A stretch of 64,000 nucleotides of DNA from NCBI GenBank assembly GCA_000701625.1, contig JNJK01000027.1, forward strand, positions 1 through 64,000. The letters are read 5' to 3'. This DNA is from Lachnospiraceae bacterium MC2017. Lineage in GTDB: Bacteria; Bacillota; Clostridia; Lachnospirales; Lachnospiraceae. This document shows positions 21,134 to 24,883 of this stretch, piece by piece; positions within the stretch are counted from its first letter, which is position 1, and each line of letters begins with the position of its first letter. The notes beneath the pieces were generated by a model, which was not told where the DNA came from, did not search any database, and saw only the letters and a list, made by a program, of their open reading frames with translations. The position numbers and the translations under genes were made by a program.

Positions 21134-22993
21134 TTAGCCAAGAAGTGACAGGATACCCTGATTGCTCTGGTTTGCCTGCGCAAGCATTGATGTACCTGCC
21201 TGTGAAAGGATATTAGCACTGGAGAACTTAACCATCTCTGTTGCCATATCTGTATCACGGATTTCCTGCTCAGCGGATGTTGTATTTTCAACAACATTAT
21301 CAAGATTCTTGATGGTGTGCTCCAGTCTGTTCTGTGTAGCACCAAGAGCTGATCTCTGAGTAGAAACCTTCTTTATTGCATCTTCGATAGCATCAATTGC
21401 ATACGTAGCTGCTTCGCCTGTCGCATCCTTTACATTGAGACCTTTTATTCCAAGTCCGGATGCATTCATTGTATCAATAGAAACACCAATCTTATTTGTA
21501 AGATCTGCGTCTGCACCTACGTGAAGATTGAATGTAAGCGCATTATCTACAGTAACCGATCCCTTTGTGATCTCGAATGTACCATCACCATTGTTCTTTA
21601 CAACAGCCTTGGAATTTGCATCAGAATCAGTACCAATATTTGAAGCCTGCTCCAATGCTGATGCCATCTTGTCATAAGCCTCGTTTACAGTGATTTCCGT
21701 ATCTTTCTCAGCTGCAGACGGAAGCGCATAGAATGTGTTTGTACCATTATTTACATAGTTACCAGCCTTTACCAGATCAGCAACATCATCTGCCGTATAA
21801 ACTGATCCATCAGCCTTTGTCGTAACTCCAATCGTATATGACTTGTAATCATTTACTGTACCTGTCGAATCGATATTAGAGCCAATCTGAACTACAGTAC
21901 CAGCTGCAAGTCCCTTTATATTTTCCTTAATGGAATCTATTGATGCTATTCCACTAGGAGAAGGAACTGTGCCTGTTGCACCAGATGCTGCAATAGTATA
22001 AGTCTCACCTCCAGCAAGTGTATAATCTGGAGTCGCTGTCCCAGCCACAGCTGCACCTGGCTGTGCTGTATAGAAACCAGGATTTGTAAGGTTCACACCT
22101 GCTGTGGTAGATTCTGTCTGATATGTATATGTATTACCATTAGAATCTGTAACAGTATCACCTGCAGCCCACGAAGGAGTTGCCTCTGGTGAAACATTCA
22201 TTGCCAGACCTGTTGCACCAACCAGAGTCTTCTTCTCACCACCGGTTACAAGTGTGTCACCAGCTCTCAATGTAGTGGTATTTCCGTTAGAATCCTTCCA
22301 AGCGGTATGTGCACTATCATAAGAGTAGGTTACACCATTCTGTATAAGCTTATCGTCCGCTGCAGGAGCTGTGTACTCTGCGATTGACTGATAATCACTG
22401 GACTTTGCTGATCCAACTATAGTATAGTCTGTGCCGCCAATCTTCACTGTATCGCCTACACCAAATGCCTTTGCAGTGAACACTGCCTTTGTAGCATCAG
22501 AAGCATCATCAACCAGTGAGCCTGCAAGACCCGCATCGTGGGCATTTACAGTCTTGACGGATTTATTTCCATTTCCCTTAAGAAGGTATGTTTCATTGAA
22601 CTTTGTTGTTTCTGAAACACGGTCTATTTCTGTAAGGAGAGTATCAACTTCATCCTGCACATTCTTACGATCATCTTCTGAAAGAGATCCATTTGCAGCC
22701 TTGGTTGCAAGCTCATCCATTCTCTGGAGCATGTCATGCACTTCTGTCAGCGCACCTTCAGCAGTCTGTACTGCAGAGATACCGTCCTGAGCATTGGAAG
22801 ATGCCTGTGTGAGGCCCTTGATCTGACGTCTCATCTTCTCAGATATAGAGAGTCCTGCAGCGTCATCAGCTGCTCTGTTGATCTTGTAGCCGGATGAAAG
22901 CTTCTCTGTTGACTTAGCTACTGTTGCCTGTGTGATACCAAAGTTTCTGTTTGCATTAAGTGCTGTAATGTTGTGCTGTACGCTATTTGCCAT
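21134..22993 (-). CDS. fliC: Flagellin with long hypervariable insert
   Basis: The 619-residue protein has the canonical flagellin N-terminus (MANSVQHNITALNANRN, then LSSGYKINRAADDAAGLSIS) for about 165 residues, and the matching C-terminal D1/D0 domain (about 500-619) ending in LSQAGTSMLAQANQSNQGIL. The middle ~330 residues form a Gly/Thr/Asn-rich surface insert with repeated GDT and NGNTYTY-like motifs, larger than the ~270-residue core flagellins of many Firmicutes. It is exported by the flagellar type III system and polymerises into the filament. The start at 22993 follows AAGGAGG by 6 nt. csrA lies directly upstream. Confidence 0.95.
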   Translation of the reverse strand: MANSVQHNITALNANRNFGITQATVAKSTEKLSSGYKINRAADDAAGLSISEKMRRQIKGLTQASSNAQDGISAVQTAEGALTEVHDMLQRMDELATKAANGSLSEDDRKNVQDEVDTLLTEIDRVSETTKFNETYLLKGNGNKSVKTVNAHDAGLAGSLVDDASDATKAVFTAKAFGVGDTVKIGGTDYTIVGSAKSSDYQSIAEYTAPAADDKLIQNGVTYSYDSAHTAWKDSNGNTTTLRAGDTLVTGGEKKTLVGATGLAMNVSPEATPSWAAGDTVTDSNGNTYTYQTESTTAGVNLTNPGFYTAQPGAAVAGTATPDYTLAGGETYTIAASGATGTVPSPSGIASIDSIKENIKGLAAGTVVQIGSNIDSTGTVNDYKSYTIGVTTKADGSVYTADDVADLVKAGNYVNNGTNTFYALPSAAEKDTEITVNEAYDKMASALEQASNIGTDSDANSKAVVKNNGDGTFEITKGSVTVDNALTFNLHVGADADLTNKIGVSIDTMNASGLGIKGLNVKDATGEAATYAIDAIEDAIKKVSTQRSALGATQNRLEHTIKNLDNVVENTTSAEQEIRDTDMATEMVKFSSANILSQAGTSMLAQANQSNQGILSLLG

Positions 22994-23061: not shown

Positions 23062-23127
23062 AGAGTGATTTGATTGAAAGTATGTATAATAAACGCTGAC
23101 TCCATGGCTGCCAGTGCTATTATCTGA

Positions 23128-23382
23128 TCAAGCATTTTGTTTTCTCTTTGCCCGCTCCCTCTTGAGAATCTGTCTGATTTCGTTATGTGCTTCTTCCGAT
23201 ATTTCATCCTTTTTATATGGAGATGAATCACCACGATTGATGTCGATCTCACGCGATATCCTGATTTCCCTCGGAGCGTCTATCAGTAAACTAATATTTT
23301 CTTTAGATCCACCCGTGTAGATCACTTTTATGTTTTCTCCAATTGCAACACATTCTGTCGGTTTCAACTTGAGCTTCAACAT
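23128..23382 (-). CDS. csrA: Carbon storage regulator CsrA
   Basis: This 84-residue protein starts MLKLKLKPTECVAIGENIKV and continues with the diagnostic IDAPREIRISREI strand, all typical of CsrA. CsrA is a small dimeric RNA-binding protein that blocks translation by covering GGA-containing ribosome-binding sites; in Firmicutes its chief target is flagellin mRNA and its antagonist is FliW. The start at 23382 has AGGAGG 8 nt upstream. A longer frame adding 14 residues has no site. The tail after residue 50 is longer and more basic than usual (ending KRERAKRKQNA). fliW is not in the window. Confidence 0.85.
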   Translation of the reverse strand: MLKLKLKPTECVAIGENIKVIYTGGSKENISLLIDAPREIRISREIDINRGDSSPYKKDEISEEAHNEIRQILKRERAKRKQNA

Positions 23383-23428
23383 ATTCTCTGCCTCCTGCAT
23401 GATTCCAAATTTAAATCCATTCAAAAAA

Positions 23429-23467
23429 GTAAGGATTCGTAGAAGAACATCTTCTGCGAATCCTTAC
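23429..23467 (-). terminator. Recombinase terminator and left inverted repeat (IR-L)
   Basis: The 18-bp stem GTAAGGATTCGTAGAAGA with its near-complement is followed on the minus strand by a T-run, so it ends the recombinase transcript. Its core (23437-23459, TCG-AGAAGAACATCTTCT-CGA) is the inverted counterpart of the hairpin at 24661-24683, with one mismatch in 23 bp. It may double as a recombination site. Confidence 0.75.
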
Positions 23468-24430
23468 TTAAAACAATTCTTTAAGCTTATTCATATTTTC
23501 ACGTTTCAATTTCATCGTTGGATGAACATACCTGTTTAATGTTATTGTCACACTGGAGTGCCCCAATATTTCTGACAATGATTTGATATCAAAATCCAAT
23601 TCCACACATCGCGTTGCAAATGTATGCCGAGTTGCATGAAAATTTGCATCCTTTATCCCGCATGTTTGAAGTATTTTCTTAAATCTCTTTTGCATCACTC
23701 TTGGCTCAACGAACTTTTCTGTATCACCTGTTAATACAAATGCATCTTTTGTAAAATGTGGTTTTAGAATTCTTACTAAAACCTTAGGTATTGGAATGAT
23801 TCGAACAGAATGGGTGCTCTTGGGATCCAGTATTTTCACTTCAGTCTTATGTTCCTTACCATAAACTCTCAATCTTTGCATCGTTTTACCTATCTTCATA
23901 GTTCTTTCACTTAAATTAACATCGTTCCACTTAAGTGCACACAATTCCCCAATACGTATTCCGGTATAAAGACATATCAAGATACCCACTGATGTCAGAT
24001 CATCCTTCTTTTTCAGATACTTGATCAGCTTATTCTCCTCATAAATACTAAAAACCCTTATATCATGACGATCATGCTTGATATTAACGCAATGAGGATT
24101 AAATAAAACTATCAAGTTTTTCCTCTGTACATAGCTTCTCAGTAAATTCATTGTCGTAATAACTTCTGATATTGTAGCCGGGGAAAGTCCTTGCTTTTTT
24201 ATTCCTCCTGTTCTGCGTAGTTCGTCGACAAAATTCACCAGATCCATATTTGTTATCATCGAAAAATCCATTTCTCCGTATACCGGCAAAATGTAATTTT
24301 TCAATATGTCTTCATACTTTATTATTGATGATTCTTTTAGTGTAAGTGCCGCCTCATTAAGCCATGCAATGCTTACCTCTGACACCTTTCCTGCTTTTTG
24401 TTCATTACCGGAAATTACATCTTTATTCAT
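23468..24430 (-). CDS. Tyrosine recombinase / site-specific integrase
   Basis: The 320-residue protein has an N-terminal SAM-like core-binding domain (about 15-120) and a C-terminal catalytic domain. The active-site residues are visible: Arg in YTGIRIGELCALKWNDV, a central Lys region, HATRHTFATR (His-x2-Arg), HSSVTITLNRY with the HxxR-box His just before it and the nucleophile Tyr in RYVHPT. It should be active. The length matches XerC/D-like and phase-variation recombinases more than conjugative-element integrases (about 400). It has GAGGAGGAG before the ATG. It stands alone, with no excisionase or phage genes, between csrA-flagellin and a truncated gene, and is flanked by near-identical inverted repeats. 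Confidence 0.9.
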   Translation of the reverse strand: MNKDVISGNEQKAGKVSEVSIAWLNEAALTLKESSIIKYEDILKNYILPVYGEMDFSMITNMDLVNFVDELRRTGGIKKQGLSPATISEVITTMNLLRSYVQRKNLIVLFNPHCVNIKHDRHDIRVFSIYEENKLIKYLKKKDDLTSVGILICLYTGIRIGELCALKWNDVNLSERTMKIGKTMQRLRVYGKEHKTEVKILDPKSTHSVRIIPIPKVLVRILKPHFTKDAFVLTGDTEKFVEPRVMQKRFKKILQTCGIKDANFHATRHTFATRCVELDFDIKSLSEILGHSSVTITLNRYVHPTMKLKRENMNKLKELF

Positions 24431-24610
24431 CTTCTCCTCCTCTATGTACTTCTAATTTGAGCAACAAAACTTAGTATGCACAGAAAAGTAAAAAAATGAA
24501 ATTACCCCTATTGGAAATGAAAGAACATGACGATATAAGAAATGAAAGAAGGATGTGATGTTTACAAGTTACCTTTTGTCAGTCTTAATTAATTATTTTC
24601 TTTTTTTGTA

Positions 24611-24639
24611 TTGACATTTGCGTTTTGTAATTGTATACT
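24611..24639 (+). promoter_or_regulatory. Consensus sigma-A promoter pointing away from the recombinase
   Basis: The sequence has a perfect -35 TTGACA, a 17-nt spacer, then TATACT. It drives the plus strand, outward from the recombinase. The next thing it meets, about 20 nt past the predicted start site, is the hairpin at 24659. The surrounding 24431-24610 DNA is AT-rich and holds no gene I can see. Confidence 0.75.
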
Positions 24640-24658
24640 GAATGCAGAATTTAGATTT

Positions 24659-24691
24659 AGTCGCAGAAGATGTTCTTCTGCGACTTTTTTA
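24659..24691 (+). terminator. Terminator hairpin and right inverted repeat (IR-R)
   Basis: A perfect 11-bp stem (AGTCGCAGAAG / CTTCTGCGACT) with loop ATGTT is followed by six Ts, a textbook intrinsic terminator on the plus strand. The 23-bp core is the inverted match of IR-L at 23437-23459. The loop base order (ATGTT here, AACAT at IR-L on the same strand) fixes the two as inverted rather than direct repeats. Confidence 0.8.
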
Positions 24692-24703: not shown

Positions 24704-24883
24704 ACGACAGGGATAAAAGGACTCCTGATCGTTTTATGGCTTGCGCGCTTTCCGTTGCTGGTCATCGGTACTGCTGTCCTCCACAAAGAAAGAGTAGACA
24801 CCATAGACGGTAAGACTATTTATTACGATATGAACGGAACACAGATCGAGCATCTGACCGACCTGTATGAATTTAATCAATAA
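24704..24883 (+). pseudogene. C-terminal fragment of a membrane-associated protein
   Basis: From 24704 the plus strand is open and coding-like: a hydrophobic helix (LLIVLWLARFPLLVIGTAVL), then ERVDTIDGKTIYYDMNGTQ and a stop at 24881-24883. There is no start codon with a ribosome-binding site; the frame is blocked by a stop at 24701, 16 nt right of IR-R. It overlaps the convergent gene's end by 11 bp. It appears to be the 3' end of a gene whose front was lost where the recombinase segment now begins. Confidence 0.55.

Follow-up and report, generated by a model that had tools for sequence, protein, structure and literature searches.

A putative self-contained invertible promoter switch beside csrA and flagellin genes in Lachnospiraceae bacterium MC2017

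A candidate invertible segment next to csrA and flagellin

A 1.2-kb segment within the 64,000-nt stretch of Lachnospiraceae bacterium MC2017 DNA that we analyzed (contig JNJK01000027.1; here, the window) is probably a self-contained invertible promoter switch that lies beside csrA and a flagellin gene. The segment carries a recombinase gene and an outward-pointing promoter-like sequence, and it is bounded by two hairpins, IR-L (23427-23469) and IR-R (24659-24685; neither hairpin is assigned to a strand). We propose that binding of the recombinase to the palindromic sites of both hairpins is followed by strand exchange in their asymmetric centers, which would turn the segment round. The sequence and its predicted folding suggest that the present orientation is OFF: the outward promoter would fire into IR-R and the recombinase transcript would end at IR-L, so that no transcript would cross IR-L toward csrA and flagellin. 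After inversion (ON), the promoter would read across a hybrid hairpin into both genes. Each recombination site would double as a terminator, with a strength set by the outer half that is joined to it.

Sites, recombinase, and promoter of the segment

A previous reading of the window, made from its sequence alone (the sequence-only reading), had placed a recombinase between two hairpins with inverted 23-bp cores that differ by one mismatch. This description is borne out: with one core reverse-complemented, 23437-23459 and 24661-24683 are identical at 22 of 23 positions, compared with 19 of 23 in the direct comparison. On the strand of the recombinase transcript, the left core reads TCGCAGAAGATGTTCTTCTACGA and the right core reads TCGCAGAAGAACATCTTCTGCGA, and, because the center TGT faces ACA, the two sites are inverted. 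IR-L is a long hairpin with a T-tract and a 3-nt loop, inside which the recombination-site core is located; its arms (20 nt, 95% complementary) are slightly longer than the 18-bp stem that had been assigned to it. The arms of IR-R are 12 nt long and 100% complementary, and, on the plus strand, CT completes the hairpin and is followed by TTTTTATTTT.

Within the 4.26-Mb genome, the relaxed pattern TCGYARA-N9-TYTRCGA matches the two window sites only (reversed-pattern control, 0 matches). A genome-wide search for the 19-nt center with up to 3 mismatches found 0 to 1 mismatch only at IR-L and IR-R, and 3 mismatches at three other places.

The recombinase gene (23468-24430, minus strand) has an intact frame of 320 amino acids, and the list of open reading frames (ORFs) holds no further gene of any size in the segment. 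The protein contains a Phage_integrase domain (PF00589) and a SAM-like domain (PF14659), and its R, HxxR, H, and Y motifs, which we take to be the catalytic residues, are in place. It is therefore a tyrosine recombinase, as had been claimed; Pfam detected tyrosine-type domains only in it and no Hin-type serine recombinase fold. The next best match to it in its own genome has 33% identity, and its best solved relatives are the “Int protein” chains 6en0, 6emy, and 6emz, presumably the Tn1549 integrase.

The outward promoter (TTGACA-17-TATACT; 24611-24639, plus strand) is of sigma-70 type, matches the consensus at 11 of 12 positions, and is situated 21 nt from the site core. It has the top score of 21 promoter-like matches in 8 kb. 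Because the number of matches equals that in shuffled sequences (mean, 22.1), the case for an outward promoter at one segment edge, as in an inverton, consists of its consensus score and its conservation, and not of the scan itself. The sequence-only reading had recognized this promoter and its direction, and the same edge recurs in homologous loci (see below).

The same locus in a relative

Lachnospiraceae bacterium NK4A144 (locus L023) has the same two hairpins, recombinase, csrA, and flagellin as the window. Its recombinase is 98% identical to that of the window, with 8 synonymous and 7 nonsynonymous differences, and the dN/dS of ~0.23 indicates that the recombinase is kept under selection. 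The csrA genes differ by 3 synonymous and 1 nonsynonymous changes. Both promoter boxes are conserved in NK4A144, around an 18-nt spacer, and the spacer and the nearby DNA have changed. In the comparison of strains that the sequence-only reading had proposed, the window and NK4A144 share one orientation; related cassettes elsewhere occur in both.

The right-hand flanks of the two genomes differ by ~2.3 kb. The break is located at 24712-24719, 27-34 nt past IR-R, where the window is without ~2.3 kb of NK4A144 DNA that includes a gene for an AAA-type ATPase and the beginning of a further gene.

Predicted termination in the two orientations

For the present orientation, the predicted folding energy is −18.7 kcal/mol on the path of the promoter into IR-R and −24.8 kcal/mol on that of the recombinase transcript into IR-L, each with a T tail. 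We infer that IR-R would stop the outward promoter at present, and that IR-L would be a strong terminator for the recombinase transcript and insulate csrA and flagellin. When the sequences were joined in silico as after inversion, the promoter path to csrA folded with only −7.9 kcal/mol and no adjacent T-tract; the hybrid hairpin would have lost both the long stem and the T-tract next to it. The recombinase path in this arrangement folded with −18.8 kcal/mol and acquired the right-hand T-rich stretch, the T residues of which are partly paired in the predicted fold. These values agree with two earlier claims, that the promoter now runs into a terminator and that flipping weakens the terminator in the direction of csrA. 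Folding of the NK4A144 locus gave the same picture, and the outcome for four NusG-linked loci was less clear-cut than for the window.

The csrA-flagellin side

The csrA gene (23128-23382, minus strand; 84 amino acids from the ATG at 23382, with the ORF listed from the TTG at 23424) is presumed to be the first gene of the candidate target operon, and the flagellin gene (21134-22993, minus strand; ~619 amino acids from the MANSVQHNITALN start, with the ORF listed from 23020) is presumed to be the second. A leader of just 44 nt (23383-23426, minus strand) separates IR-L from the csrA start codon, without any sigma-70 or sigma-28 match in the promoter scan. Hence, csrA is without a visible promoter in the present orientation. 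The absence of a match is weak evidence, because a strict sigma-28 match precedes only 2 of 10 flagellin loci, one locus without a match having just 124 nt of upstream DNA. The best match of the sigma-28 scan before csrA and flagellin scored 9/12. Upstream of flagellin, both the window and NK4A144 have a weak promoter-like match (CTGGCA-17-TATTAT; 23086-23114, minus strand, 9/12) that could be flagellin's own promoter. For these reasons, we read the present state as OFF for csrA and as possibly low for flagellin. With ten flagellin-domain matches in the genome, the main filament gene may be a different one from the window flagellin. In Bacillus subtilis, CsrA is an inhibitor of flagellin gene expression (PMC3720852), and co-switching of csrA and flagellin would therefore alter both.

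The alternative that survives best is that the segment does invert, while csrA and flagellin are under their own promoters and not controlled by it. The weak match upstream of flagellin and the strong insulation at IR-L are both compatible with such independence, but the shortness of the gap between IR-L and csrA, with no promoter match inside it, is not easily reconciled with it. Gene directions at homologous loci also argue against it: in 19 of the 34 loci with a site pair (described below), the layout is as in the window, with the nearest ORF on the recombinase-end side pointing away from the segment and the promoter-side ORF pointing into it. These ORFs were called by a heuristic longest-ORF rule that misses some loci, such as L033 and L083, where we placed the NusG-like gene by tblastn. 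On balance, we regard independent control of csrA and flagellin as unlikely, and favor control by the invertible segment.

Inverted site pairs in homologous loci

Homologs of the recombinase are found in 8 of 48 genomes at the genus level (E ≤ 1e−40) and in 67 of 397 genomes at the family level (E ≤ 1e−55, with at most 5 candidates per genome scored), the window's own genome being included in both counts. We analyzed 72 loci: the window, L023, 10 genus-level loci (L033-L042, including L037 and L038, two identical genes located at contig ends), and 60 regions. The latter are the best-scoring 60 of 85 rows, the window excluded, that were listed at E ≤ 1e−55 and represent a sample rather than the whole family.

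Inversion by a tyrosine recombinase requires shared arms and a private center, matched within the locus in inverted order. In a motif-free search, the recombinase was flanked by a palindromic inverted pair in 20 of the 72 loci and by a direct pair in none, and 400 cross-locus control pairs gave 1 inverted and 3 direct matches. The 19 pairs found through inverted symmetry were used to build a motif matrix, which favors palindromic sites for this reason; its arms are close to TCGYAGAGT / ACTCTRCGA. The matrix search, which also required similarity in inverted order, retrieved a site pair around the recombinase in 34 of the 72 loci, all 34 with reverse-complementary centers. Because the window and L023 form one orthologous pair, these represent fewer independent cases. 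With no condition on similarity or on the center, at least two motif sites were found in 37 of the 72 loci, each with one inverted pair and none with a direct pair; six further pairs, which involve a third weak site, match in neither order. Two inverted repeats with matching asymmetric centers thus surround the segment, as in an inverton, both in the window and in homologous loci. Among 41 pairs of 23-nt sites, 33 centers are distinct, and centers match across loci in 15 of 1640 comparisons.

The remaining 35 loci, which yielded no pair in the motif-site test, may be ordinary integrases or loci with unlike sites. One of them, L036, carries a different inverted pair. The recombinase ORF of this locus (L036:4644-6828, in genome G023) runs through its own site into a downstream domain, for a total of 550 amino acids, and a copy of the downstream stretch (432 nt, 96%) is inverted on the other side, so that a flip would exchange the fusion partners.

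Sixteen of the 397 family genomes contain the exact pattern TCGYAGAGTNNNNNACTCTRCGA (reversed control, 0). The window genome is not among the 16: its arms, TCGCAGAAG, do not match the last two positions of the family consensus TCGYAGAGT, and the exact consensus pattern is therefore absent from it. The matches listed include at least five inverted site pairs that are 234-423 bp apart (G342:C1, G383:C19, G384:C27, and G384:C66). This spacing is too short to hold a recombinase, and these segments are perhaps flipped in trans.

An outward promoter that scores at least 11/12 lies within 110 nt of the upstream site in 19 of the 34 pair loci. At a threshold of 10/12, the number is 24, and the other 10 loci have no such promoter. 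Controls at 11/12 (and at 10/12) gave 0 (2) of 34 for the inward direction, 2 (3) of 34 for the other edge, and 4 (35) of 680 for shuffled sequences. Five target-facing loci read by hand (L033, L083, L088, L106, and L119) have at most 3 T beside the upstream site and at least 6 beside the downstream site; across the 19 loci that share the gene layout of the window, T is more frequent on the promoter side in 13, equal in 2, and more frequent on the opposite side in 4. Because just 13 of the 19 fit, we describe a T-tract opposite the target as a trend.

The window recombinase lacks an N-terminal extension ahead of its aligned part, a region in which most of the paired relatives have an additional ~50-100 amino acids; the recombinases of L119 and L122 are short likewise. 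In the phylogenetic tree, the window recombinase belongs to a supported clade of 13 rows (98/88) that includes L033 and L034. A tree test for a single origin of the pair-bearing recombinases did not support one: they are not one clade with respect to other site arrangements (7 changes, with 62 of 500 shuffles as low; 69 of the 72 rows were long enough, 26 rows without sites were left out, and the bootstrap had not settled).

Related cassettes in opposite orientations

Genome G012 contains two cassettes, L033 and L034, beside NusG-domain genes. From site to site, they align in the plus orientation (93.5% over 1550 nt), and both of their flanks align in the minus orientation. One flank breaks within the site and the other breaks ~40-100 nt outside of it, with a short and weaker piece over the site. 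Between L082 and L083 in genome G160, the segment similarly aligns in the plus orientation (87% over 1322 nt), with the target-side flank in the minus orientation from ~60 nt outside the site; the other flanks do not align, and the inversion in G160 is seen at one flank. The NusG-like gene is located on the promoter side in L033 and L083 and on the opposite side in L034 and L082. In genome G419, CpsB genes adjoin the upstream site at L119 and the downstream one at L122, and neither of these two segments has a good outward promoter. Because the G012 and G160 cassettes are paralogous loci, they show that inversion at the sites has occurred, without giving its present rate. The switch geometry put forward in the sequence-only reading is thus supported by an inverted pair, and never a direct one, in each of the 37 loci with at least two motif sites, the recurring promoter edge, both orientations among related cassettes, and the folding.

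These comparisons leave little room for the explanation that IR-L and IR-R are ordinary intrinsic terminators, alike by chance or descent, that flank a solo integrase. Both hairpins do look like terminators, and terminator-like matches in the region (4) are no more numerous than in shuffled sequences (mean, 4.0). However, inverted pairs with locus-specific centers recur in homologous loci, and never in direct order; the two sites are unique in the genome; flipped cassettes exist in other genomes; and many family sites have few T alongside. We therefore consider the explanation very improbable, and the related-terminator alternative raised in the sequence-only reading falls away. IR-L and IR-R have the appearance of recombination sites with an additional terminator function. 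Marginally less probable still is the insertion before csrA of a small mobile element (an integrase with its attachment sites) that is no switch: the recombinase is of phage or transposon integrase type, as are its best solved relatives, and its homologs adjoin many different genes, but the site pairs are inverted and not in the direct order expected of prophage or mobile-element attachment sites (0 direct pairs in 37 loci), the recombinase is the sole gene in the segment, a search with a reach limited to close relatives confirmed none for the protein in viral contigs, where the consensus site occurs in one stretch, and the site pairs of L103, L104, and L110 bound a short segment to one side of the recombinase.

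Relation to known switches

In the Hin system of Salmonella, the recombinase is inside the segment, the promoter is at one edge, and the target is flagellin; Hin is a serine recombinase that works with an enhancer. The parallel with Hin drawn in the sequence-only reading holds for the layout; as that reading also said, the window recombinase is of tyrosine type, and the window sites, unlike those of Hin, would double as terminators.

Control of flagella through inversion by a tyrosine recombinase, as we propose for the window, is described for the flagellar switch of Clostridioides difficile and RecV (PMC7446863, PMC5903667). That switch is upstream of the flgB operon, unlike the csrA-flagellin position in the window, and the invertible segments of C. 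difficile are 154-230 bp long, with only Cdi7 having a recombinase gene nearby (PMC5903667). The cwpV switch of C. difficile has a terminator at the repeat in its OFF state, as we propose for the window; its promoter is upstream, whereas the window promoter is inside the segment (PMC2784873). Judging by its description, an 844-bp segment near a fimbrial locus of Providencia stuartii resembles the window segment in that it is putatively invertible and encloses a recombinase ORF, between 14-bp imperfect repeats (PMC5903667). Finally, the window cassette family may correspond, as far as the description of the group goes, to inverton group 139 and tyrosine invertase group 35 of PMC11892184. That group comprises 33 invertons, 32 of them from Clostridia, which were identified in read data and classified by their repeats; according to a figure legend, almost every one of them is close to a recombinase from a single tyrosine-type group. 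The string “flagell” has no match in the main text of that article.

Inversion switches that use tyrosine recombinases, a putative example whose segment includes the recombinase (PMC5903667), and a terminator at the repeat, in cwpV (PMC2784873), are therefore already on record. The csrA-flagellin member seems to be new, as do the combination of a single gene with a promoter and site-terminators and the set of genes that neighbor the cassettes in Lachnospiraceae. Our literature search found no csrA-flagellin switch in Lachnospiraceae and no phase variation by DNA inversion of the flagellins of motile gut Lachnospiraceae, which are pro-inflammatory according to the title of PMC3720852.

Genes beside the cassettes in Lachnospiraceae encode NusG-like proteins, CpsB, UDP-GlcNAc 2-epimerase, a PglD-type transferase, a LytTR response regulator, a PP2C phosphatase, and proteins with a pilin-type methylation motif or a helicase domain. 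A broader reading, which we regard as possible but somewhat short of an even chance, is that Lachnospiraceae have a family of one-gene, self-flipping promoter cassettes in which the sites are orientation-dependent terminators. The cassettes would be placed repeatedly before regulators (CsrA, NusG/LoaP-like antiterminators, a response regulator, and apparently nuclease-dead TnpB-like proteins), and csrA-flagellin would be found beside such switches more than once in one genus. If this reading is true, one flip would phase-vary a whole regulon. A single plasmid is enough to test the 1.2-kb cassette, which contains the recombinase, the promoter, and the site-terminators, and the family site motif makes capsule, surface, and regulatory switches in Clostridia searchable from assemblies alone.

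Further observations at related loci

TnpB-like proteins are encoded just past the downstream site in 4 of the 34 pair loci (L075:5076-6425, L077:2554-3879, L123:5182-6498, and L078:5100-5642). The three long ones (L075, L077, and L123) have a Cas12f1-like TNB domain, and that of L078 is a shortened relative (tblastn). Their RuvC acidic residues seem to be replaced, as judged by eye from the alignment, which is also a feature of nuclease-dead TldR-type regulators.

Two other loci touch on csrA. In genome G019, a single family-type site (TCGCAGAGC-N6-GCTCTGCGA; L044:7322-7345) is located just before csrA; it has no partner by pattern in the G019 genome and no recombinase beside it, and is possibly a relic. 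In genome G011, of the same genus as the window, a different tyrosine recombinase of 217 amino acids (L045:6868-7685) precedes csrA between the two copies of an inverted repeat (34 nt, 79%) and may be a second, independent csrA-side switch.
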